In this document: piece after piece, positions 5,770 through 62,585 of the stretch
Layout of the letters: each line of letters begins with the position of its first letter
How positions within the stretch are numbered: the stretch's first letter is position 1
NCBI RefSeq assembly: GCF_002304005.1
Contig: NZ_MRCQ01000013.1
Span: 1-64,000 of the forward strand
Source of the DNA: Flavobacterium sp. ACN6
Lineage (GTDB): Bacteria; Bacteroidota; Bacteroidia; Flavobacteriales; Flavobacteriaceae
DNA: 64,000 nt
Direction: 5' to 3'
Made by a program: the position numbers and the translations under genes
Notes under the pieces: model-generated
Databases searched by the model: none
The model's input: only the letters and a program-made list of their open reading frames with translations
What the model was told of the DNA's origin: nothing

Positions 5770-6894
5770 ATGAAAGAAATCAACCAAATACTTAAAGCAT
5801 ATTCAAAGGCAAAATTATCAGGAAAAAAAACAGCTTTGGCCACAGTCGTTAAAGTTGAAGGATCATCTTATCGGCAGCCTGGCGCACGCATGCTTGTAAC
5901 TGAAGATGGTGAACTTACAGGCGCTATCAGCGGAGGCTGTCTGGAAGGAGATGCACTTCGAAAAGCACTTCTTTCTATCCATCAAAAGCAAAATAAACTA
6001 ATTACTTACAATACCAGTAATGAAGATGATGCCGAAGTCGGTTTACAGCTTGGATGCAACGGAATTGTACATATTCTGTTTGAATTTATTGAAGATGCCG
6101 TTGAGCATAATCCAATTCAGCTTTTACAGCAATTAGAATTAGAAAGAAAAGAAGCCGTAATAGTTACCGTTTTTTCCCTAAAAAGAAATGCTTTTCAGAT
6201 AGGAACAACATTGTTTTTTAGAAAAGATAGTCCGATTTTAAATCATAACAACGAAGTTTTGAGTTTAGTTTCGGAGTTAAAAGAAGTTCTTGAAACCAAA
6301 ATATCTGTCGTAAAAAAACTGCAGCAGGAAAATGATAATGAAGCTTTAATCGAATATATAAAACCGCCAATTTCGCTCGTTATTGCAGGTGCAGGAAATG
6401 ATGTACAGCCTTTAGTACAAATGGCATCCATTTTAGGGTGGAAAATTACTGTTGGTGAAGGCCGAATTGCCCATTCATCAATAAAGCGCTTTCCTAAAGC
6501 AGATCAGGTGTTTACTGCAAAATCCGAACAATTTTTAGAAAATATTACAGTAGATAATCAAACCTATTTTGTTTTGATGACGCACAATTACAAATACGAT
6601 TTGGGAGTTCTAAAATTACTCTTAGAAACAAATTGTCAATATATTGGAATTTTAGGCCCAAAATCAAAACTAAATCGAATGATCGGTGATCTGGAAAAGG
6701 AAGGGGTTTATGTAAATGAAGAACAGCTGAAAAGAATTTACAGCCCAGTAGGATTAGATGTTGGTGCCGAAACAGCAGAAGAAATTGCACTTTCAATTGT
6801 GTCTGAAATTAAAGCATTTTCTACCGAAAGATTTGGTACTTCTTTAAAATATAAAGCGGGAAAAATTCACGACGAAATCGAGTATGAAAAATAA
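5770..6894 (+). CDS. XdhC/CoxI family molybdoenzyme maturation factor
   Basis: The 374-residue protein has the two expected parts: an N-terminal XdhC_CoxI domain (about 15-80; GSSYRQPGARMLV, then GAISGGCLEGD) and a C-terminal Rossmann-type XdhC_C domain (about 200-350; LVIAGAGNDVQPL, then YIGILGPKSK). Members bind molybdenum cofactor, take part in its sulfuration and insert it into xanthine-dehydrogenase-type enzymes. The conserved Cys of the GGCLEG motif is present. The gene overlaps the next by 11 bases, so the two are translationally coupled. The likely client is the three-subunit oxidoreductase at 9.3-13.2 kb. Regulation is not visible beyond the small inverted repeat ahead of the start. 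Confidence 0.9.
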   Translation: MKEINQILKAYSKAKLSGKKTALATVVKVEGSSYRQPGARMLVTEDGELTGAISGGCLEGDALRKALLSIHQKQNKLITYNTSNEDDAEVGLQLGCNGIVHILFEFIEDAVEHNPIQLLQQLELERKEAVIVTVFSLKRNAFQIGTTLFFRKDSPILNHNNEVLSLVSELKEVLETKISVVKKLQQENDNEALIEYIKPPISLVIAGAGNDVQPLVQMASILGWKITVGEGRIAHSSIKRFPKADQVFTAKSEQFLENITVDNQTYFVLMTHNYKYDLGVLKLLLETNCQYIGILGPKSKLNRMIGDLEKEGVYVNEEQLKRIYSPVGLDVGAETAEEIALSIVSEIKAFSTERFGTSLKYKAGKIHDEIEYEK

Positions 6895-7486
6895 ATTTCA
6901 TGATAAAACAGGAATTGTCATTTTAGCTGCAGGAAATTCATCACGACTTGGCAGACCAAAACAGTTGTTAGAATATAAAGAATCTACACTTTTAAAAAAC
7001 ACGATTTCAGAAGCTCTAAATGTTCCAAATTCATTTGTAATAGTCGTAACAGGTGCAAACAATCAAAACATCGAAAAGGACCTTGATTCTGCTGCAATTA
7101 CATTATGTTTTAATGAAGATTGGGAAACTGGAATGTCATCTTCAATCGTAAAAGGATTAAAAGAAATATTGCATTTAAACTCAGATTCTGAAAATTGTAT
7201 TCTAGCAGTTTGTGACCAGCCTTTTGTTACGAGTTCAATATTTGAAAATCTTATAAGCGAATATCATAAAACCCAAAAAGGAATTGTCACTTCAGCTTAT
7301 TCTGAAACCTTAGGAACTCCGGTTTTATTTCATAAAAAATATTTCAATGAATTGTTGGATTTGAAAGGGCAGGAAGGAGCGAAAAAAATCATTAAAAAAT
7401 ATTTAGAAGATACAGTTTCAGTTCCTTTTGCAAAAGGCAATATTGATATTGATACGGAAGAAGATTATACTACGTTGATTTCTTGA
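6884..7486 (+). CDS. MocA-like molybdopterin nucleotidyltransferase
   Basis: The 200-residue protein starts with the nucleotidyltransferase signature VILAAGNSSRLGRPKQLL (about residues 11-29), with the later acidic CDQPF motif of NTP_transf_3 enzymes. The family includes MocA (CTP to molybdopterin cytosine dinucleotide) and relatives for GTP. PaoABC-type enzymes use the cytosine form, so CTP is the likely substrate here by inference. It overlaps xdhC by 11 bases. The last codons (LIS and stop) lie in a tandem repeat of TTGATTTC, so the 3' end seems to have been reshaped by repeat DNA. Confidence 0.85.
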   Translation: MKNKFHDKTGIVILAAGNSSRLGRPKQLLEYKESTLLKNTISEALNVPNSFVIVVTGANNQNIEKDLDSAAITLCFNEDWETGMSSSIVKGLKEILHLNSDSENCILAVCDQPFVTSSIFENLISEYHKTQKGIVTSAYSETLGTPVLFHKKYFNELLDLKGQEGAKKIIKKYLEDTVSVPFAKGNIDIDTEEDYTTLIS

Positions 7487-7556
7487 TTTCTTGATTTTAA
7501 GGTTTAAGGTTTAGAGGGACAAAGGGACAGAGGAGCAAAGGTGTGCAGAGGTTCAA
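7475..7556 (+). repeat. Octamer array at the 3' end of the MocA-like gene
   Basis: Three TTGATTTC-type octamers (7475-7498) run across the stop codon. They are followed by units of consensus AGGnnCAA at 7500, 7515, 7523, 7531 and 7549, mostly in 8-bp phase with small slips. It belongs to the family described for 18528-18694. Confidence 0.8.
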
Positions 7557-7868: not shown

Positions 7869-7896
7869 CTTAGTGCCCTAGCGCCTTTGTGGCAAA
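7869..7896. repeat. TGGCAAA-type octamer repeat overlapping a gene end
   Basis: Three octamers in phase (7869-7876, 7877-7884, 7885-7892) plus CAAA. They match the copies at 13351-13378 and 31067-31094 at most positions. It supplies the stop codon of the cysteine desulfurase. Confidence 0.75.
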
Positions 7897-9021
7897 TTCA
7901 CCAGCCAAAGCCAAAACCCGGTCTACAGCGATCTCAATTTCCTCCAAAGTTGTAAAACGCCCCAGACTAAAACGAATTGAACTCAAAGCCTCTTCATTCG
8001 ATAATCCCATCGCTTTTAAAACATGAGATGGTTCAGAAGTTACCGCCGAGCACGAAGCCCCATTTGAAACCGAAATATTCCCCAAAGCCATAATTAGATG
8101 CTCTGAATTTACATTTGGAAAACAGATATTTGTAGTATTATAAATTCGGTTTTCTGTATTTCCGTTTACAAAAGAACCTTCAAATTGAAGTAAACCAACT
8201 TCTAATGTATTGCGTAACAGTTCGATTCTTTTTTTATCTTCTTCTAATTGATTTAAAGCAACTTCAGATGCTTTACCTAAACCAATTATTCCAGGAACAT
8301 TGAGAGTGCCGCTACGTAATTTACGTTGCTGTCCGCCGCCTGTAATTTGAGGAAGCAGTTTTAATTTGGCTTTCGCCGAAATATACAAAGCCCCAATTCC
8401 TTTTGGACCGTAAAATTTATGTGCAGAAAGGGCTAAAAGGTCAATTCCTAAAGTTTTAACGTCAATTGGAATTTTTCCAGCAGCCTGCGTAGCATCACAT
8501 AGAAAAAGTACATTTTGGGCTTTAAGTATTTTAGAAATCTCACTGATATTTTGTAAGACGCCAGTTTCATTATTAGAAAACATTCCGATGAAAACCAGTG
8601 TTTTATCTGTTATTGCTTCATTTAAAAGATTAAGGTCTAAAAGTCCGTCTTTAGCGACTTGTAAATACGTTATTTCAAAACCAATGCGCTCCATAAACTG
8701 GCAGGTTTCGAGTACAGCTTTGTGTTCAGTAGCAACAGTCACGATATGTTTTCGATCCTGATCAGCCAGACCTTTAATTGCTAAATTAATTGCTTCTGTC
8801 GCACCCGATGTAAAGGTTATTTCTTCTGCATCAGCATTAATTAAATTAGCGGTTTGCCAGTATGCATTTTCCACAGCTTCATTTACGGTTAATCCCGCAA
8901 TGTGCTGACTTGTAGAATTGGCATAAAGATCAGAAAAATAAGGAAGCATAGCTTCAAGAACCCTTTCATCAACGCGAGTTGTTGCATTATTATCCAGATA
9001 AATATTTTGATTTTGAAACAT
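7870..9021 (-). CDS. Cysteine desulfurase, NifS/IscS type
   Basis: The 383-residue PLP enzyme releases sulfur from cysteine as an enzyme-bound persulfide. Visible are the N-terminal YLDNNATT motif, the PLP-binding lysine K202 in SAHKFYGPKG, the GGGQQRKLRSGT loop and the active cysteine C324 in NGASCSAVTSEPS. Length fits the family. It sits between the xdhC/mocA-like pair and the PaoABC-like genes but on the opposite strand. A role in sulfurating the molybdenum cofactor via XdhC is a reasonable inference; a housekeeping Fe-S role is the alternative. The last nine codons (FATKALGH and stop) coincide with a dispersed repeat of CTTTGTGGCAAA type, so the C-terminus is repeat-derived. Confidence 0.9.
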   Translation of the reverse strand: MFQNQNIYLDNNATTRVDERVLEAMLPYFSDLYANSTSQHIAGLTVNEAVENAYWQTANLINADAEEITFTSGATEAINLAIKGLADQDRKHIVTVATEHKAVLETCQFMERIGFEITYLQVAKDGLLDLNLLNEAITDKTLVFIGMFSNNETGVLQNISEISKILKAQNVLFLCDATQAAGKIPIDVKTLGIDLLALSAHKFYGPKGIGALYISAKAKLKLLPQITGGGQQRKLRSGTLNVPGIIGLGKASEVALNQLEEDKKRIELLRNTLEVGLLQFEGSFVNGNTENRIYNTTNICFPNVNSEHLIMALGNISVSNGASCSAVTSEPSHVLKAMGLSNEEALSSIRFSLGRFTTLEEIEIAVDRVLALAGEFATKALGH

Positions 9022-13350: not shown

Positions 13351-13378
13351 CTTTGCGACTTTGTGCCTTCGTGGCATA
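13351..13378. repeat. TGGCAAA-type octamer repeat
   Basis: CTTTGCGA, CTTTGTGC and CTTCGTGG follow each other in 8-bp phase. It is a copy of the element at 7869-7896 and 31067-31094, lying just behind the DUF2911 gene. The bases from 13240 to 13350 hold more decayed TTTGCG-type sequence. Confidence 0.7.
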
Positions 13379-18527: not shown

Positions 18528-18694
18528 AGGCTCAAAGGTGCAGGGGAGCAGAGGTTCAAAGATTCAAACGTGCAGAGGTTCAAAGGCTAAAAAACTTTGT
18601 CGCTTTTAACCTTTGTTACTTTGTTACTTTTTTCTTAAAGGTTCAAAGGCTGAAAAACTTTGCCACTTTGTACCTCAGAACCTTTGCTCCTTCT
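18528..18694. repeat. 21-unit octamer inverted array
   Basis: From 18528 to 18591 eight consecutive units of consensus (A/G)GGnnCA(A/G) run in exact 8-bp register. From 18592 units of the complementary type (AACCTTTG, TTACTTTG) follow in the same register, then two AGGnnnAA units (18639-18654), then complementary units to 18694. The arms can pair into long imperfect hairpins. The last units encode the final residues and the stop of the GH88 gene. Confidence 0.9.
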
Positions 18695-19862
18695 TTCTTA
18701 ATAATGCTTCCAGAAAATAATAATCAGCATAAATTATAGGTTCGTCTATTTCGTCGTGTTTTGGCCAGTTTCCTGTGCTGTGATCGAGTAAAAAAGGAGC
18801 TTTTATTTTTGGATCTAAAATGTATTGATCCGTTTGAACGGAAGCCATTACTTTATCGGCGAAAGCCAAATAATTGTCCTTTTTTGTGTAAGTGTATAAT
18901 TCATATAATGCAGACGCCATAACCATTGCAGCTGAAACATCTCGAGGAGAATTTGGAATATCAGGATCTTTAAAATCCCAATACGGAATTCCGTCTTCGG
19001 GCAGTTTTTTATTCGTTATAAAAAAGTCTGCTGTTGCTTCAGCTTGTTTGAGATAGGCGGGATCTTTAGTATATCGGTACGACATTGTGAATCCATAAAC
19101 GGCCCAAGCCTGACCACGCGCCCAAACCGAATCATCATTATATCCCTGCAAAGTAGTTTTCTTTCTAACTTCACCCGTATTCGGATTATAATCAATAACA
19201 TGATAGCACGAGTTGTCTGCTCTAAATTGATTTTTTAAAGTGGTATTAGCGTGTTGAACTGCAACATCACGATATTTTGGATTTCCAGATAATTTTGAAG
19301 CTTCAAAAAGCAATTCCAGATTCATCATATTATCGATGATTACCGGATAATCCCAAATTGCGGCGTTGAAATCCCAGGAACGGATAGAACCCACTTTGGG
19401 ATTAAACCTTTTGCATAAAGTTTCGGCACCTCTAATAACTACGGCTTCGTATTCTTTCTTGTTTTCCACTTTTAGGGCCTCTCCAAAACTGCAAAACACT
19501 TTAAAACCTACGTCATGCGAATTACTATTAACACTTTCTTTCTTGCTGAAAGGAGTCCATTTTTGAGCTTGTTCTTTGTACTTAGAATCGCCTGTTAATC
19601 GGTATAACTGCCAAAGATTTCCGGCAAAAAAACCGCTTGTCCAATCTCTCGAAGGGACTTTGCGAATCTCATTGGTTTTGCTATTCATACTTCTTGGCAT
19701 CGACATAGAATCAACCGGATAGTCCAATAGCATTTTATATCGGGTTTCCAGAAGATTTCCTGCCGCTGCAGAAGTTTTGGTCTGAGAATTAATTCCGGAT
19801 TTGCACGCTGTCCCAAGCAGTGCAAACCCAAGAATTAAAGAAATGAAACTGACATTCTTCAT
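18675..19862 (-). CDS. GH88 unsaturated glucuronyl hydrolase
   Basis: The 395-residue lipoprotein (signal ending LLGTAC, Cys20) has the alpha/alpha-barrel of GH88. The two aspartates essential in the Bacillus enzyme are present: D117 in SHDVGF and D177 in VIIDNMMN. DDSVWARGQAWAVYG follows. These enzymes hydrolyse the 4,5-unsaturated uronic acid left at the non-reducing end by polysaccharide lyases, so the locus should include a lyase step. The lipoprotein signal suggests a periplasmic or outer-membrane place. The last residues (KKEQRF) and the stop are encoded by the octamer array behind it. It follows SusD with a 229-base spacer. Confidence 0.92.
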   Translation of the reverse strand: MKNVSFISLILGFALLGTACKSGINSQTKTSAAAGNLLETRYKMLLDYPVDSMSMPRSMNSKTNEIRKVPSRDWTSGFFAGNLWQLYRLTGDSKYKEQAQKWTPFSKKESVNSNSHDVGFKVFCSFGEALKVENKKEYEAVVIRGAETLCKRFNPKVGSIRSWDFNAAIWDYPVIIDNMMNLELLFEASKLSGNPKYRDVAVQHANTTLKNQFRADNSCYHVIDYNPNTGEVRKKTTLQGYNDDSVWARGQAWAVYGFTMSYRYTKDPAYLKQAEATADFFITNKKLPEDGIPYWDFKDPDIPNSPRDVSAAMVMASALYELYTYTKKDNYLAFADKVMASVQTDQYILDPKIKAPFLLDHSTGNWPKHDEIDEPIIYADYYFLEALLRKKEQRF

Positions 19863-19954: not shown

Positions 19955-20035
19955 AGCTATTCCCGCTATCCGTTCCAATCTTTTGTGGCGAACCCCGCCA
20001 CAAAAGGATTTCCACTTCTATCGGGGCTAGGAACT
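19955..20035. repeat. GC-richer palindromic element
   Basis: The centre is a perfect 10-bp inverted repeat, TTTTGTGGCG (19981-19990) and CGCCACAAAA (19996-20005). The flanks CCCGCTATCCG and CTATCGGGG can pair weakly outside it. It stands out from the AT-rich spacer between susD and GH88. It looks like a dispersed Bacteroidota intergenic element, but copy number elsewhere cannot be checked here. Confidence 0.65.
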
Positions 20036-20091: not shown

Positions 20092-21612
20092 TTAGTAACC
20101 AGGATTATTTGGTTTTAAATTCGGATTAATAGCCAATTCGGTTCCTGGTAAAGGCCATAAATAATCTTTGTTTGGATCAAAGTTAGCGTGCGGTTCTAAG
20201 CCGGCTGGGCCAAATACTTCTGATCCAATTTTTAATCTTTTAATGTCATACCATCTGATGTATTCAAATGCTAGTTCCAATCTTCTTTCATCAATAACCA
20301 TTTTTCTGAAATCGGTTTGAGACAATCCCGGCGTTACGTTTGCAGGAAATGAAACCAATTTTCCAGCTTTGTTTCTCGCTCTTGCACGAACTCGGTTTAC
20401 ATAGCCATCAGCCTCAGTGGTTCCCGGATTAATTTCGTTTAAAGCTTCTGCTGCCGTAAGCAATACTTCTGCAAAACGCATCGTAATATAATTGTGCTGC
20501 GAAGTTCTTCCGTTGGCACCAGCTTTTCCCGGAAAACGGTAATATTTTGCAATATGCGGACGCGGCGCTTTTTCATTATCACTTGAAGGATAAATTTGTA
20601 ATGCTCCGCCTGGACCAGTTTTCTTTCTGATGATAGTATCAAAACTTACCGCTCTTCTGTAATCTCTTTGATCCCAAGTATTGAATACTTTTAAGGAAGG
20701 AACAGCAACAGAAAATCCTTGGCCGTAGCTGTAACTGTCATCTTTTAAGGAACCTGTAAAAAATGCAGTATAATCCTGACCGTAATTTCCAGAAGTTAAG
20801 TTGTTAAAATCGATTGTAAATAATGGTTCTTTTAAAGAAGCTGTTTTTGCAGCGTTAAATAAATCTTGAAAATCTGCATCCAGACCTAAACCAAATTTGG
20901 CTTCGTTTGTAATTACAAATTTGGCTTCATCATAGGCTTTTTGATAATTCCCTAAAGTCAAATAAACAGAAGCTAAATAACCTGCAGCAGTACCTTTTCC
21001 GGGAACGGCTTTTACTTTTGGTTTATCTTCCAGCCACTGTTTTGCAAATTCTAAATCGGCGATAATTTTTGGATAAACATCTGCTTCTTTTGTCCTGCTT
21101 AGAGAATTTACCTGAGCAACATCATTTACAACAAAATCAACATACGGAATATCTCCAAAAAGACGTACCAAATGATAATATGTAAAAGCTCTTGCAAAAT
21201 AAGCCTGAGCCACAATTGCATTTACTTTTGCAGGATCTCCCGGTGTTTTTTTAGCGCCTTCAATCGCCTGATTTGCCGCCGTTATAATCACATACGACTG
21301 CGGCCAAAAGTTGGCCACAAGTGCGTTAGTGTCATTCATGCTCATATCGTTAACATCGATACGCGCAGCCTGCGTGGTTCTGTCTCCAATATCAGACATA
21401 TCATCTCGAAGCATTAAGGCAATTGTAAATTCTCTTCCCCAGTAATTATTGTGGGCTATATTGGCAAAAGCTCCGTTTACAGCGGCCTGTAAATCATCTG
21501 TGTTATTAAAAAAGTTATCTGGACGAATTATTCCTACTGGTTTTTCTTCCAGATCAGAACATCCAAAAAAAGCGAGTGTTCCGAAGAATAGAAAAGCGAT
21601 ATATTTTTTCAT
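20092..21612 (-). CDS. SusD/RagB family outer-membrane glycan-binding lipoprotein
   Basis: The product is 506 residues from the ATG at 21612. A Met 13 codons upstream is possible, but the lipoprotein signal (MKKYIAFLFFGTLAFFGC) starts at 21612. It has N-terminal SusD repeats with TPR-like helices (WPQSYVIITAANQAIEGAK, AIVAQAYFARAFTYYHLVRL) and the C-terminal block MRFAEVLLTAAEALNEI, then ELAFEYIRWYDIKRL. SusD caps the SusC pore and captures oligosaccharide at the cell surface. It follows susC with a 184-base spacer in the same direction, so the pair works as one unit. Ligand specificity cannot be read from the sequence; the neighbouring enzymes suggest a uronate glycan. Confidence 0.95.
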   Translation of the reverse strand: MKKYIAFLFFGTLAFFGCSDLEEKPVGIIRPDNFFNNTDDLQAAVNGAFANIAHNNYWGREFTIALMLRDDMSDIGDRTTQAARIDVNDMSMNDTNALVANFWPQSYVIITAANQAIEGAKKTPGDPAKVNAIVAQAYFARAFTYYHLVRLFGDIPYVDFVVNDVAQVNSLSRTKEADVYPKIIADLEFAKQWLEDKPKVKAVPGKGTAAGYLASVYLTLGNYQKAYDEAKFVITNEAKFGLGLDADFQDLFNAAKTASLKEPLFTIDFNNLTSGNYGQDYTAFFTGSLKDDSYSYGQGFSVAVPSLKVFNTWDQRDYRRAVSFDTIIRKKTGPGGALQIYPSSDNEKAPRPHIAKYYRFPGKAGANGRTSQHNYITMRFAEVLLTAAEALNEINPGTTEADGYVNRVRARARNKAGKLVSFPANVTPGLSQTDFRKMVIDERRLELAFEYIRWYDIKRLKIGSEVFGPAGLEPHANFDPNKDYLWPLPGTELAINPNLKPNNPGY

Positions 21613-21796
21613 AGTATTATTTTTAGGTATTAGGTGTATAATTGAACACATAGAAACATGGCTTTTAGGAACGATAATTAAGGCGTTTCATTTGCATTAC
21701 TAATCATAGCATTTTGCGTTTAGCTATTTGTAAAACTGGTTTTTTAATTTTCCTCTTTGACAAAAAAATCTATATTTCTATGTGTTTACTATTAGA

Positions 21797-29119: not shown

Positions 29120-29199
29120 AGGTTCGAAGAGGCAAAGGCTCTGAGGTTCATGGGCTGTCAAAAAAACCTTTGCACCTTTGTACCTCTGAGCCTTTGAAA
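29120..29199. repeat. 10-unit octamer inverted array
   Basis: Five AGGnnCnn-type units (29120-29159), an A-rich unit, then four CTTTGnAC-type units to 29199, all in 8-bp register. The two halves are complementary and can form a hairpin. The array ends exactly where the stop codon of the beta-helix gene starts (29200). Confidence 0.88.
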
Positions 29200-30828
29200 C
29201 TATTTTAAACGTTTACTTAATTGATAATCATACAACGACGGAATTTTTTCTATTCCCGTATTCAAAAATTCAATATAAGGATCGACGTCGTATTTGATTT
29301 CAAATTTAGTGTTTCCGTGTACGCCAATGATTCTAGCAAAAGCTCCGTCTTTCATTCCGTATAATAAAACCGGTTTCGTTTGATTTGGATTTTCGACTTG
29401 AACATTTAAATTCCAAAATGTACTGAAAGGCGCGTGTGAAGGTTTCCAATATGCAGCACCGCCGCCTCCAAATAAATAGTAACTATTGTTTTTATCAGCC
29501 GTAATATGAACCGTAATATTATCAAATAAATTTTGATGATTTGCTCCCGAATGCTGATCTAAAAGCGGATCAGCAAATAATTCACAATTCTGATAAACGT
29601 TTTTGGTCGCAAAAGTGTTGAAACTTAATGGATGAACCGTTTTATTGTAAATTTTTAAATTTTTCACCAAAATATTATGAACACCGCCTAAAGTTACGGT
29701 ATAATGTGATAAATGCGGGCCATCGGTAGTAATATCCTGAACGGTTACATTTGAAACTTCTTCGGCTAGAATACCGCTGTCAGCATTGGTGATTTTAATA
29801 TCTTTTACCCAGCTGTTAAAAAGGCGCGTTAAGAAAATTGCATTATTTCCTGGTTCTACATGATGTGCCACTCTCGGAATATCAGGAAAAGTAAAGCGAA
29901 GATGTTCAATTCCAACTTCATTTAAATGTTTCCATTCCACCAATTGCGCTTGATAACTCGGTTTTACCGAAATAGTTAAGGGCGTTTTTAAAGTGATTTT
30001 TGAACCCGAAATTTTAAGAATTTCAACCTGCTGTCTCACAATTGGAAGTTTTGGAAATTGCCAATGATGCGAACCTGGTTTTACTTTAGCACCTTGATAT
30101 AAGTCTTTAATAATTTCACCGTTTTCGCCGTCTTTATTAAACAATTGTAATTCGACAATATCGCCGACTTTTAAGTTTTTAACTTCAGAAACCGTAATAA
30201 TATGTTCGCCCATTTTTCCAGAACTGACCTTCGCCAAAACATTAGGTTCGGGTTCGTATTTATCCAAATACGATTTTACACGTTCACCCGGAATCTGTGT
30301 CCAGATAAAACCGCCAGACCAAGCATATTGTGAGAAAGGCAAATCGATATTGTTTTCTGTTTCGCGTTGTCTTTTATCAAAAGTGGTTAAATACTCACGA
30401 AGTTCTGCCAGAGATTTTGGATCTTTTAAATACATCATCGGTCGTGGGCAGTAGATTTCAGTTCCGTTTTCGTCAGAACCTGCGCCGCGAAGTACAAAAT
30501 TACTTCTTTCGATGTAAAGAATATCACTCAGAATAATTCTGCCTGCAGGCAATTGCAGGACTACATTTCCACTAATAGAATTTGCTGTTTCAAAGGCTTT
30601 TAACAATGCTTTTGAATCATCTAAATTGTCATTTGCTTTAACGCCAAAATCTACGGCATTAATAATTTGTCCGTTTGATACTGGAATCTGGCTTTCGCCG
30701 AAGTGATATCCAGCATAACTAAAATCAGGTAAATAGTTTGTTTTTGATTGAAGAATATTGGGTAGTTCCTGCGCCATTGTAGTATTTACAACAAGGCTGC
30801 AAAAGGTGATAATGGCTTGGCGAATCAT
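29200..30828 (-). CDS. Exported right-handed beta-helix protein, candidate polysaccharide lyase
   Basis: The 542-residue protein has a signal peptide (to about residue 19, ending TTMAQ). The start of the helix (AVDFGVKANDNLDDSKALLKA, about 59-79, then LPAGRIILSDIL) is typical of the pectate-lyase-3/GH28-related superfamily. Beta-helix coils continue (VSNVTVQDITTDGP, VHNILVKNLKIYN). An insertion of about 100 residues lies after the first coils. I cannot assign a CAZy family or catalytic residues. The locus codes for GH88, which needs unsaturated products, and shows no other lyase candidate, so this is the best one. A glycoside hydrolase or epimerase is the alternative. It sits between uxuA and the sensor gene on the same strand. 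Confidence 0.75.
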   Translation of the reverse strand: MIRQAIITFCSLVVNTTMAQELPNILQSKTNYLPDFSYAGYHFGESQIPVSNGQIINAVDFGVKANDNLDDSKALLKAFETANSISGNVVLQLPAGRIILSDILYIERSNFVLRGAGSDENGTEIYCPRPMMYLKDPKSLAELREYLTTFDKRQRETENNIDLPFSQYAWSGGFIWTQIPGERVKSYLDKYEPEPNVLAKVSSGKMGEHIITVSEVKNLKVGDIVELQLFNKDGENGEIIKDLYQGAKVKPGSHHWQFPKLPIVRQQVEILKISGSKITLKTPLTISVKPSYQAQLVEWKHLNEVGIEHLRFTFPDIPRVAHHVEPGNNAIFLTRLFNSWVKDIKITNADSGILAEEVSNVTVQDITTDGPHLSHYTVTLGGVHNILVKNLKIYNKTVHPLSFNTFATKNVYQNCELFADPLLDQHSGANHQNLFDNITVHITADKNNSYYLFGGGGAAYWKPSHAPFSTFWNLNVQVENPNQTKPVLLYGMKDGAFARIIGVHGNTKFEIKYDVDPYIEFLNTGIEKIPSLYDYQLSKRLK

Positions 30829-30867: not shown

Positions 30868-31094
30868 TTGCCACGAAGGCAGTAAGGCGCAAAGTTTTTT
30901 TTAAGCTCATTTTTGTCACCCTGACGAAGGAAGGATCACACTCGAAACTCCGCAATCAAAATCGCCAATCTTTGTAGAATTACGCGTGTGATCATTCGTT
31001 CCTCATGATGACAAAGTAAACTTCACATTATTTTAAGTAAATCTGCTCAATCTGAGAGAAAAAAAACTTTCCGCCTTAGCGTCTTCGTGGCAAA
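30868..31094. repeat. Nested inverted repeats between two operon genes
   Basis: An outer pair is TTGCCACGAAG..GCGCAAAG (30868-30894) against CTTTCCGC..CTTCGTGGCAA (31067-31094). The arms are written in 8-bp units (30871, 30879, 30887; 31067, 31075, 31083). Inside is a second imperfect inverted pair, about 30 bases each, at 30911-30941 (TTTTGTCACCCTGACGAAGG at its start) and 30985-31016. The whole spacer between the beta-helix gene and uxuA is made of it. Confidence 0.8.
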
Positions 31095-33226: not shown

Positions 33227-33254
33227 TTATTAATTTATTTTTAAATTCAATACT

Positions 33255-33389
33255 TTAAATTCCAAATTCCAATTTGAAAAATAAGGTATTTATACTATTT
33301 GTTTTTTGAAATTCCAATATAGAAATGAAAATCCATATGTGTTTGATTCCTCGCTTTCGGAATTTGGAATTTCAAAATTTGGAATTTCA
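33255..33389. repeat. AAATTCC-type inverted array
   Basis: The left arm at 33255-33275 repeats AAATTCC. The right arm at 33359-33388 repeats GGAATTT with small slips. Together they can fold back. The right arm runs into the stop codon of the aldolase gene (33387-33389). It is the AT-rich relative of the octamer arrays. Confidence 0.65.
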
Positions 33390-42996: not shown

Positions 42997-43458
42997 ATGG
43001 CCAACACCTATACACAAATACACGTACAATTTGTTTTTGCAGTAAAGTACAGAAAAGCATTAATTGCAAATGAATGGAAAGATAGATTGCATAAATACAT
43101 AACTGGTATTGTTCAATCAAATCATCATAAAATGATTTGTATTAATAGTATGCCGGATCACATTCATATTTTTATAGGTATGCGTCCAACGCAATCTATT
43201 TCGTCTCTAATTCAAAATATTAAAACAGAGACTAGTAAATGGATTAAAGAAGAGAAACTGTCCAAAGGATTTGCTTGGCAAGAAGGTTACGGCGCTTTTT
43301 CGTATTCCAGAAGCCATGTTCCGAATGTAATTCGATATATCCAAAATCAAGAAGAACATCATAAAAAAGAAACATTTTTGGAAGAATATCAAAAACAGTT
43401 AAAAGCATTTGAAATAGAATATGATCTTCAATATATTTTTAAAGAGCCAATTTTATAA
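42997..43458 (+). mobile_element. Solo Y1 (HUH) transposase, IS200/REP-associated type
   Basis: The 153-residue protein of the Y1_Tnp family has the metal-binding H-x-H (H55, H57 in MPDHIHIFIG) and the nucleophile Y114 in VIRYIQNQEEHHKK. Length fits IS200-type TnpA. These enzymes nick and join single-stranded DNA at hairpins. No tnpB is present. Directly behind it, from 43461, lies an 870-bp array of short hairpins, which fits a transposase tied to REP-like elements more than a free insertion sequence. I cannot see clear IS200 ends. All key residues are intact, so it may be active. The DsbA-like gene ends at the other side of the array. Confidence 0.85.
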
Positions 43459-43460
43459 TC

Positions 43461-44330
43461 CCAAACGTCCCTACGGGACGAAACGAAAAAAAACATATTT
43501 TTTTCTACCAATGAGATGTTCCTATGGAACATGTTTTTGGTTTAATTTTTTTTTAGAAGAAGAGGAAATTAATACGATGATTCTATTTTAAGCAATATTA
43601 ATAATTGTTCCGTAGGAACATTTCATTGGTATAAAATTGAATATTTATCCGTTTTTTCGTTCCGTAGGAACGTTTGAATTATTAATTATTTAAATGTCAA
43701 TAAATTAAAAACAATCAATTTTGTAAACCAAACGTCCCTACGGAACGACACAAAAAAAAATGTTTTTTTTCTACCGACGAAATGTTCCTATGGAACATTT
43801 TTTTATTTTTTAATTGTTGTTAAATAAATAGAATAACAAGAAATTAATACAAGGATTCTATTTTGAGCAATATTAATAATTGTTCCGTAGGAATATTTCA
43901 TTGGTAGAAAATTGAATATTTATCCGTTTTTTCGTTCCTTAGGAACGTTTGAATTATTAATTATTTAAATGTCAATAAATTAAAAACAAACAATTTTGTA
44001 AACCAAACGCCCTGCGGGGCGACACAAAAAAAAATGTCTACCGACGAAATGTTCCTATGAAACATATTTTTATTTTTTAATTGTTGTTAAATAAATAGAA
44101 TAACAGGAAATTAATACGAGGATTCTATTTTAAGCAATATTAATAATTGTTCCGTAGGAACATTTCATTGGTAGAAAATTGAATATTTGTCCGTTTTTTT
44201 CGTTCCGTAGGAACGTTTGAATTATTAATTATTTAAATGTCAATAAATTAAAAACAATAAATTTTGTTAACCAAACGACCTTATGAGACGAAACAAAACC
44301 TATGAAATGTTCCTATCGAACAGAAATTAC
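43461..44330. repeat. About 270-bp tandem units with four hairpins each
   Basis: Units start at 43464, 43731, 44006 and 44274 (the last is partial). Each full unit holds four hairpins with 3-nt loops: a CGTCCC-TAC-GGGACG type, ATGTTCC-TAT-GGAACAT, TGTTCC-GTA-GGAACA and CGTTCC-GTA-GGAACG, set in well-conserved AT-rich spacers. Some arm changes keep pairing: in unit 3 the first hairpin is CGCCC/GGGCG in place of CGTCCC/GGGACG. There is no coding potential. It fills the whole space between the transposase gene and the convergent DsbA-like gene. Confidence 0.9.
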
Positions 44331-59778: not shown

Positions 59779-60640
59779 GAAGTCCCAGAGGGACGTTATA
59801 TTTATAGAAGCGCATTTTCTCACAACATAAAAGCCTGTGGAAGGCGAAATATATTAAGTGTATACAAATAATATATTCAAATATAGCCTGCGGTTTCAAC
59901 CGCGGGAATCGTGTGGGGATAATGATTCATCTTATAAGAGTATTATATCGCTCCTCTGAAGCTTTATTTCGTAGTGTGTATATTGTTGGCTTTAAATATC
60001 ACGCTCCTATGGAGCTTTATTTCATTGTGTCCTATTTTTAGCTATAAACATTACGCTCTGCTGGAGCTTTAAAATAAAGTCCCAGCGGGACGTTATATTT
60101 ATAGAAGCGCATTTCTCGCAACATAAAAGCCTCAGAGAGGCGAAATATATTATGTGTATTTTGTTGGCTGCAAATATCACGCTCCTCTGGAGCTTTATTT
60201 CATTGTGTTCTATTTTTTTGGCTACAAACATTACGCTCTGCTGGAGCTTTAAAATAAAGTCCCAGCAGGACGTTATATTTATAGAAGCGCATTTTCTCAC
60301 AACATAAAAGCCTCAGAGAGGCGAAATATATCAAGTGTATACAAAATAATATATTCAAATATAGCCCACGGTTTTAACCGTGGGAACGTAGCGAAATATT
60401 GATACAAACGCATTTTCTCCAACATAAAAGCCTGTGAAAGGCAAAATATATTAAGTGTATACAAAATAATATATTCAAATATAGCCCGTGGTTTCAACCG
60501 TAGGAAACGTAGCGAAATATTGACACAATCGCATTTTCTCCAAGATAAAAGCCTCAGCGAGGCGAAATATATCAAGTGTATACAAAATAATATATTCAAA
60601 TATAGCCCGCGTTTTCAACCGTGGAAAACGTTTAGCGATA
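59779..60640. repeat. REP-like array, 180-bp and 120-bp tandem units
   Basis: A mosaic of short hairpins: GTCCC-AGA-GGGAC (59782, 60079, 60259), GCCTC-AGA-GAGGC (60130, 60310), GCTCC-TCT-GGAGC (60180) and longer CCCGCGGTTTCAACCGCGGG-type palindromes following ATAG (59883, 60361, 60481, 60602). GTCCC at 60079 and 60259 marks a 180-base period, and ATAGCCC at 60361, 60481 and 60602 a 120-base period. The spacers are well conserved between copies. Open frames in it are by-products. It separates the small exported protein from the permease gene. Confidence 0.88.
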
Positions 60641-62057: not shown

Positions 62058-62137
62058 AGGTTCAGAGGTACAAAGGGACAAAGGCTCAAAGTGAAGAAAC
62101 CTCTGTCCCTCTGCACCTTTGAACCTTTGTCCCTTGA
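62058..62137. repeat. 10-unit octamer inverted array
   Basis: Four AGGnnCAA-type units (62058-62089), one divergent unit, then AACCTCTG-type units from 62098 to 62137, all in exact 8-bp register. The halves can pair. It fills the spacer between the permease and the MaoC-like gene. Confidence 0.88.
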
Positions 62138-62144
62138 AGAAAAA

Positions 62145-62585
62145 TCATTTTTTCTTTACCAAAAGTAAATGGTCACAAACCAAAACGACTTCACCGCGTT
62201 GGTTAATGATTTCTACATGTTCAGTTACGGTTCCCATTTCAGGGTTTTTAGCTTCTCCTTTTTCGGAGATAGTTACTTCAGAGTGAATAGTATCGCCAAT
62301 ATGAACTGGTTTTACAAAACGCATTTTGTCGTATCCTCTAGAAAAAGCTTCAGGATTTATTTCTGATGCTGTCAAGCCGATTCCGATACTGAAAACCATA
62401 GTTCCGTGTGCAATTCTTTGTCCAAATGGCTGTGTTTTACACCATTCTTCATCCATGTGGTGCGGGAAGAAATCGCCAGTATGTCCTGCATGAACCACAA
62501 AATCAGTTTCAGTTATGGTTCTGCCTAATGTTACTCGTTTGTCGTCGATTTTATAATCTTCGAAAAAAGTCGATTTAAAATACAT
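62145..62585 (-). CDS. MaoC-like hydratase
   Basis: The 146-residue single hot-dog domain has the hydratase motif with the catalytic Asp and His: [12 protein letters not shown] (about 38-49), then [18 protein letters not shown]. The Asn-Pro of the classical motif is replaced by FPHH. Such enzymes hydrate or dehydrate enoyl-CoA or similar thioesters. Next to a sugar permease and a Gfo/Idh oxidoreductase its role is unclear. A TAATTTTG box (minus strand, 62635-62628) stands 43 bases upstream and could be a -7 element. Confidence 0.87.

Follow-up and report, generated by a model that had tools for sequence, protein, structure and literature searches.

Intergenic hairpins built of degenerate 8-nt words in Flavobacterium: probable solo relatives of stem-loop elements around PF05635 (IVP) genes

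Several spacers in the window, which is the whole 64-kb stretch of contig C13 analysed here, contain short degenerate words that return every eight nucleotides, and the question is to what kind of element such arrays belong. The window is part of a 5.13-Mb genome (G000), and its arrays are composed of the following parts, those with three cores having been positioned by hand counting.

7507-7548 (+): single octamer arm, six AG chained at 8-nt spacing, about 20 bp past the stop of gene 6884-7486 (+)
18528-18591 (+): 5' arm of hairpin 1, AGGnnCAR units, some degraded
18587-18628 (-): 3' arm of hairpin 1, six-AG chain, the innermost AG outside the code (past a T-run and overlapping the end of the 5' arm)
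18639-18654 (+): short 5' arm of hairpin 2, in tandem with hairpin 1, from a 63-bp duplication
18650-18691 (-): 3' arm of hairpin 2, six-AG chain, the innermost AG past the T-run
29120-29151 (+): 5' arm, four AG cores
29168-29201 (-): 3' arm, five AG cores, 2-bp overlap with the stop codon of gene 29200-30828 (-)
62058-62091 (+): 5' arm, five AG cores
62101-62134 (-): 3' arm, five AG cores; the MaoC-like gene 62145-62585 (-) has its stop codon 10 bp away
7869-7893 (-): GCCAC-dialect arm, three cores, at the stop codon of gene 7870-9021 (-)
13351-13375 (-): GCCAC-dialect arm, three cores
30870-30894 (+): GCCAC-dialect arm, three cores, partner of 31067-31091
31067-31091 (-): GCCAC-dialect arm, three cores, partner of 30870-30894

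Of the four octamer spacers listed by the first-pass annotation, those at 18528-18691, 29120-29201 and 62058-62134 stand, and the remaining one is reduced to 7507-7548: positions 7475-7506 hold TTGATTTC in tandem (2.9 copies) together with a TTTAAGG heptamer, neither of which is in the octamer code. This site has only one octamer arm. At the other three the arms lie on opposite strands with a loop between them and are thus inverted to one another, as had been proposed, and folding gives inverted complementary stem-loops (raw energies for the four regions of -29 to -54 kcal/mol on the + strand and -13 to -48 kcal/mol on the - strand). The exact 8-bp register is strict inside one arm but is not kept across arms. 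Since 18528-18691 consists of two tandem hairpins related by the 63-bp duplication, the claim of 21 units in register is wrong for this site. Its last arm (18650-18691) enters the 3' end of gene 18675-19862 (-), the TGA stop of which lies inside an array word. The small CTTnGnGC arrays at 7869, 13351, 30871 and 31067, noted earlier for their common step, are three-core versions of the same 8-nt code, and the sense strand of all four opens GCCACnAAG. The last two face each other within a single spacer; between them, at about 30910-30950, starts an element of the GTCACCCTGACGAAGGAAGGATC type, which is a long hairpin family in relatives. The reversed window sequence, used as a control for the octamer arms, contains no chains.

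The composition of the word was obtained from 438 units in 86 arms of G000. These units were found by consensus and kept when at least three of five core letters agreed, so that the following frequencies are conditional on that choice: A 99%, G 97%, G 80%, T 64%, a mixed position (C only 1%), C 87%, A 89% and A/G 95%. Positions 1, 2, 6 and 7 are tight and positions 4-5 are free; positions 3 and 8, previously counted among the conserved ones, are looser. Read from the outer end of an arm inwards, the octamer is CNRAGnnn. The strict motif AGGNNCARAGGNNCARAGG occurs 115 times (59 + 56) genome-wide and its backwards pattern 0 times. An array scorer applied to seven unselected 20-kb stretches plus the window returned 15 runs, of which the window accounts for 11, and none in reversed sequence. 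Independent of any motif, 5-mers in 84 spacers of the seven unselected stretches recur at distances of 8, 16 and 24 nt in 63, 57 and 36 cases, compared with 18, 17 and 20 in shuffles. A genome scan thus bears out the suspected period-8 signal, and the hairpins that carry it are genuine and frequent in G000.

In the same 84 spacers, recurrence at 7, 14, 21 and 28 nt is even stronger. Period 7 exceeds period 8 in the seven unselected stretches and falls below it in the window and the array loci. Arrays of heptamer words (AATTCCA, GTTTCAA, CTAAGnA) are seen at 33227-33386 of the window, L064:18705-18848 and L066:10423-11103, the first two being inverted. Among 150 genomes (G000 and 149 relatives) the strict octamer motif is present in 24, and the 13 with at least ten matches are all at least 4.6 Mb in size and belong to the same genus. 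Records carrying the name Flavobacterium also bear such hairpins. At gathering thresholds Rfam has no match at the arrays; its only match in the window is Flavo-1 RNA (RF01705, 80 bits) at 19955-20032 (-), between genes 18675-19862 and 20092-21651. Two other repeats in the window are a set of 258-bp tandem repeats (3.4 copies, 95% alike) at 1-887, within ORF 39-2195 for a repetitive protein, and tandem blocks at 59949-60627 with CGCTCC..GGAGC palindromes and other hairpins, which represent another intergenic repeat family.

The first-pass annotation knew of no element class defined in this way. A candidate for such a class can now be named, as the arms in the window match those flanking PF05635 IVP genes. 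In G000 itself an AGGnnCAR hairpin (L041) encloses a small PF05635 '23S_rRNA_IVP' gene at C2:340039-340395. No IVP gene is found in the window, which hid this link from the first-pass annotation: G000 has 13 IVP matches, none of them on contig C13. All 20 Flavobacterium genomes searched have IVP matches (1-13 each, 133 in total), and the flanks were read for 90 of them, the other 43 scoring lower save G006:C5:232583. Inverted word arms around the IVP gene score above the 95% point of the null in 71 of these 90 loci and in 20 of 30 loci from other phyla (above the 99% point in 29 and 19, respectively); 19 of 90 and 10 of 30 fail at 95%. The null was made of mispaired IVP flanks, upstream aligned against downstream, and since these share words the test is strict. 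Among 266 control genes, which still include a weak IVP match (G000:C9:111213), 12 score above this 95% value.

The arms of IVP genes are made of degenerate 7-8-nt words. In well-armed non-octamer elements a word is shared between the two arms in 89 of 101 cases (89 distinct), against 112 of 303 mispaired flanks, and the step is 7 in 70, 8 in 17 and 6 in 2, where the set still includes two octamer loci missed by the regular expression (L279 and L419). The association of word arms with IVP genes is well supported. A single IVP query matches 190 of 296 Bacteroidota genomes, and a second query 144 of 297 genomes of another phylum. Of the 14 genomes that have an octamer IVP, 12 contain AGGnnCAR arrays, compared with 0 of 6 without one among the IVPs read; some unread IVP matches belong to genomes of the latter group, and with related genomes the p value of 7e-4 is only indicative. 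In other phyla 16 of 21 octamer-bearing genomes have an IVP and five do not, and one of these five (G166) has 233 matches to a looser pattern.

The word family follows the IVP subfamily. In a tree of 118 IVPs, 15 carry octamer arms according to a regular expression (L279 is an octamer locus by eye and is counted as such in the table of 20 genomes). This label needs four changes on the tree, compared with 14.4 when shuffled (0 of 500 as low), and a test for a single clade gives no rejection (p = 0.41). In Flavobacterium, the 13 octamer IVPs labelled by the regular expression are all located at one genomic site, so much of the link in this genus reflects common descent. For this reason a second set of 60 IVPs was examined, made up of the 30 best hits among 296 Bacteroidota genomes and the 30 best among 297 genomes belonging to the phylum of G162. 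Two or more octamer hits within one arm are found for 19 of 29 IVPs that are at least 53% identical to the octamer IVP query and for none of the 31 below this value (p = 1e-8), with wrong-strand hits in 0 of 60. The positives above this threshold comprise 18 of 24 in Bacteroidota and one of five in the other phylum. Five loci (L388, L391, L396, L398 and L418) are common to both sets, and without them the numbers are 15 of 24 and 0 of 31. Of the 13 Bacteroidota loci from outside the genus, 8 are positive. In the other phylum, G162 (L359, identical to L418) has octamers in both arms and L419 has one hit per arm. L373 is an exception, with octamer arms around an IVP that is just 45% identical.

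A finer correspondence exists between IVP variants and word dialects. CA words accompany MKTF-like IVPs in 19 of 19 cases and CT words accompany MSHF-like IVPs in 8 of 10, the two remaining MSHF-like proteins (61/61 and 58/60% identity) being about equidistant from both references. The two arms of octamer IVP elements mostly share a dialect. The MKTF- and MSHF-like variants, 61% identical, occupy the same site in different Flavobacterium species, including the close relatives G006 and G063. At L291 (G006) and L269 (G063) the IVP variants are about 62% alike and each has its own word dialect at the same site, as if a whole cassette had been exchanged.

On this evidence the hairpins of the window are probably IVP-less 'solo' relatives of IVP stem-loop elements, of which a pentamer would read one word per subunit. 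The coding form of such an element would carry a PF05635/TIGR02436 four-helix-bundle (IVP, S23p) gene in its loop, each arm being a word array with a word family tied to the IVP subfamily. Arguments against this reading are G166, rich in arrays and with no IVP match, solo dialects that are independent of the resident IVP variant, the IVP loci that fail the arm test, and L373. The number of words is the feature that invites comparison with a pentamer. IVP octamer arms have five AG cores in 37 of 57 cases (three in 5, four in 7, six in 5, and seven, eight and 13 in one each), and five is also the mode for solo arms in G000, with 45 of 86 (none in 5, three in 7, four in 9, six in 7, seven in 5 and eight arms longer). 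The 74 arms of sister genomes have three cores in 29, four in 5, five in 29, six in 5, seven in 4 and eight in 2, and by eye the three-core class resembles the CGCAAAG and GCCAC dialects. Other word families have three words per arm in 36, four in 65, five in 47, six in 8 and fewer above, so that the peak is at four and then five; the mispaired null used for these families keeps the repeats of each flank, and the number five is not tested by it. In the wider survey five cores are found in 8 of 23 partner arms and three to nine in the others, the loci having been chosen with at least five cores and some hairpins counted twice, so that this count lends no support to the number five.

Solved relatives of IVP, 2gsc and 2rld, have five chains each. 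A Xanthomonas protein of the family is described as a homopentamer (PMC4990558), and the words 'five four-helix bundles' stand in the title of the 2gsc paper as given in the reference lists of PMC3936711 and PMC10053308. The same account of the Xanthomonas protein gives the IVP/S23p family no known function (PMC4990558). Genes of the family are mentioned in cas loci, frequently alongside nuclease genes (PMC3936711), as would suit a protein acting on nucleic acid. An IVP pentamer may bind a single-stranded arm, most likely as RNA, with one word per subunit. Such reading would fix the 8-nt step and the usual number of words and would leave the letters in between free. In its widest form the proposal is that each subfamily of pentameric, Avd-like IVPs recognises a 7- or 8-nt word peculiar to it, with five words per arm and one per subunit, that this defines a hairpin class present in several phyla, and that fixed-step arrays are its solo forms; we regard this as tentative, with chances slightly short of even. 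If true, the match of a five-word code to a five-part protein would provide a concrete hypothesis for what IVPs bind, would account for degenerate fixed-step spacer arrays in several phyla and would identify a source of fast spacer change between close strains. A published link between IVP genes and such word repeats was not found in the literature searched, which excludes most subscription journals.

The position of the arrays relative to genes agrees with the gene-end location that had been suspected. In a sample of G000 spacers, enriched in that most loci were picked for arrays and with 46 array-less spacers below 20 bp omitted, convergent spacers carry an array in 15 of 40 cases, codirectional ones in 28 of 181 and divergent ones in one of 44 (divergent versus the rest, p = 0.003). 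Among spacers with a stop-facing end, the array is no more than 15 bp from a stop codon in 34 of 43. In several sister genomes the TAA stop lies within an array word. At L201 (G088) the octamer array enters the coding end, encodes a C-terminal tail KRQSLKGSK and then supplies the TAA inside a word. The order of the arms is also strongly polar. The CNRAG-reading arm comes first in 40 pairs of neighbouring opposite arms in Flavobacterium and second in four, and it comes first in all 19 two-armed clusters among 80 loci from many phyla including Flavobacterium, where 75 more clusters are one-armed. For the other phyla arm order alone was retained, as gene context from crude ORFs was too noisy and was dropped.

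A hairpin just past a stop codon, together with the near absence of arrays from divergent spacers, is what intrinsic (Rho-independent) terminators would also give, and the first-pass annotation had named transcript ends as a possible function. The sequence that follows the 3' arm speaks against this: TTTT is found within 12 nt in one of 36 sense ends and AAAA in 23 of 36, and the loops of several elements contain, by eye, a separate canonical terminator. The hairpins are therefore not intrinsic terminators as far as these features tell, and we consider this explanation very improbable. mRNA protection, another of the functions offered earlier, fits the position past stop codons. As a guess from position, the role of the solo hairpins would be protection or insulation of the mRNA 3' end in the first place and passive tolerance in the second; in the proposed mechanism, the hairpin or a protein ring just past the stop codon would act on the mRNA 3' end in this sense or would merely be tolerated.

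An explanation without any protein reader is that the arrays are products of replication slippage and template switching, as the suggestion of a slippage by-product had implied. In its favour are an internal 16-bp repeat in 10 of 86 arms, where 3.2 are expected, and unit indels between G006 and G063: CGCAAAGT. The units themselves argue against it. Dinucleotides at the free positions are identical in a fraction of 0.19 for neighbouring units and 0.19 for units of other arrays, which is below a within-arm permutation (z = -2.2). With the best of all registers taken, the match between opposite arms at the free positions is no higher than with arms from elsewhere (z = 0.2), and in fixed registers no complementarity above chance is seen there. 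The stem is thus not tuned for pairing at these positions, and mismatch of this kind is what would be expected if the words are read separately. Shifted-register pairing of the arms, hinted at by a single RNA fold, was discarded on the same test in all registers. Perfect complementary stretches between arms show a weak excess at 20 bp only (2 of 26 versus 0.3), and long identical stretches between loci are not in excess (seven pairs of shared 24-mers versus 5.0 for shuffled units). As neighbours are unlike, arms do not match and loci do not share stretches, most units look as if drawn independently from one code, and traces of slippage or duplication are confined to a minority of arms. Also against slippage are the polarity of 40 to 4 and 19 to 0, the five-core mode and the link to an IVP subfamily, and as a general explanation it is improbable.

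Turnover between relatives is fast. The alignment of spacers from sister genomes proposed earlier was carried out at three orthologous sites, where by eye the array of most genomes keeps its place but differs in units or dialect, and a few genomes are almost devoid of spacer. G006 and G063 are collinear over a 200-kb stretch with a median flank identity of 0.94. Of the 90 spacer pairs compared there, 17 fall below 60% identity, and in 15 of these 17 each genome has a strong hairpin (fold z of -3 or below), often of unrelated word families by eye. Spacers that have diverged in this way thus tend to retain a hairpin with exchanged letters. The 73 better conserved pairs have a hairpin in both genomes in 30, in neither in 33 and in one in 10, and all nine divergent spacers are at least 85% identical. 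Breaks in the 200-kb alignment (L248-L257 versus L258-L267) mostly correspond to replacement of the hairpin family or to a hairpin in one genome only. In mixed spacers, neighbouring inverted arms agree in dialect in 34 of 44 cases versus 30.3 expected, a result that is blurred by nested elements.

These changes bear on how solo hairpins arise, for which two variants of the solo reading can be formulated, each with a probability that overlaps with that of the reading itself. In the first, solo hairpins are selected sites at mRNA 3' ends bound by the resident IVP or another RNA-binding protein, and the arms flanking the IVP gene itself serve autoregulation. The location past stop codons, the fixed cores amid free letters and the 24-mer result, which gives no sign of copy-paste, agree with this. 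Against it, ten spaced words are hard to reach via point mutation, close relatives exchange hairpins for other word families, and the solo dialect is independent of the resident IVP variant: G004, G008, G063 and G083 have MSHF-type IVPs, with CT words, yet contain 26-78 AGGnnCAR matches. We hold this variant to be possible, at somewhat under even chances. The second takes the hairpins as non-autonomous, MITE-like mobile elements moved by IVP or a partner enzyme. Orthologous sites with and without a hairpin are consistent with it: G042 and G008 have a gap of 3-4 bp from stop to ATG at a site that holds a full hairpin in other genomes, and at a second locus the gap is about 20 bp in G066 and G005. 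The swapping of hairpin families in otherwise collinear DNA agrees with it as well. Against it, IVP is not known to have a catalytic role, loci do not share long stretches in excess, and across the 13 Flavobacterium loci compared the octamer IVP has stayed at a single site. The Coxiella 23S IVS has been termed a selfish element (PMC4990558), which favours movement, and overall this variant is unlikely without being negligible.

A different mobile origin would be that of REP/RAYT-type palindromes moved by a Y1 transposase. The location of the arrays resembles that of REPs, and Y1_Tnp genes are present in 24 of 30 genomes searched and once in the window. The distribution of the arrays does not follow that of the transposase: no Y1_Tnp match is found in G004 (78 array matches), G053 (9) and G054 (24), and G056, G025, G005 and G047 have four or five Y1_Tnp and 0 arrays. 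With 24-mer sharing between loci at the level of shuffles, a REP/RAYT identity was rejected and is extremely improbable. The window gene is at 42997-43458 (+) and is a Y1 transposase gene (PF01797, RAYT-like by size). It is followed, at 43448-44298, by a 267-bp tandem block with GTTCCGTAGGAAC-type palindromes, and the gene and block are likely to be a REP/RAYT pair.

The solo reading can finally be compared with known systems. ORF-less 23S rRNA IVSs exist beside coding ones. In the IVS of Leptospira, Coxiella and others, complementary sequences are described as bordering a stem-loop with an ORF of the PF05635 family in the loop, and the stem of the Coxiella IVS as having 28 bp with one mismatch and one bulge (PMC4990558). 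A stem-loop with complementary arms, and a coding form with a PF05635-family ORF in the loop, are common to both. Unlike the IVS, the present elements are intergenic, past stop codons, numerous per genome and outside any rRNA context (those of the window are placed within spacers between protein genes or extend across a spacer edge, and none is in a 23S rRNA gene), and their arms are degenerate arrays of 7-8-nt words, mostly five in the octamer family. The window members lack the PF05635 ORF in the loop, which the relative at C2:340039-340395 of G000 has.

Cyanobacterial STRRs are comparable short fixed-step repeats. TAACTGA heptamer repeats are reported from Beggiatoaceae, Cyanobacteria and some Bacteroidetes, as direct repeats of one heptamer which in the main species mostly precede start codons (PMC4679880). 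Short intergenic words at a fixed step, a patchy spread and long arrays in some species with repeat-free relatives are shared with both, whereas the present words are degenerate, 8 nt long, arranged in inverted arms, past stop codons and tied to IVP, with no exact 7-nt tandem units. REP/BIME elements with their RAYT transposase offer a precedent for intergenic palindromes with a dedicated protein family (PMC2817692). The present arrays differ from them in not following the Y1_Tnp distribution and in having no excess of near-identical copies. Kinship of IVP with Avd is stated in PMC10053308. IVP and the Avd of diversity-generating retroelements belong to the same superfamily, and two octamer IVPs scanned against NF033474 (Avd) score 35 and 32 bits, below the Avd cut-off of 80. 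The mode of reading itself has a counterpart in TRAP, a ring-shaped homo-oligomer of 11 subunits that binds spaced NAG triplets, each subunit taking a single NAG-containing word and the spacer letters being free. TRAP has an unrelated fold, more subunits than the five of IVP and a tighter spacing, but by analogy with it an IVP ring may likewise take one word per subunit.
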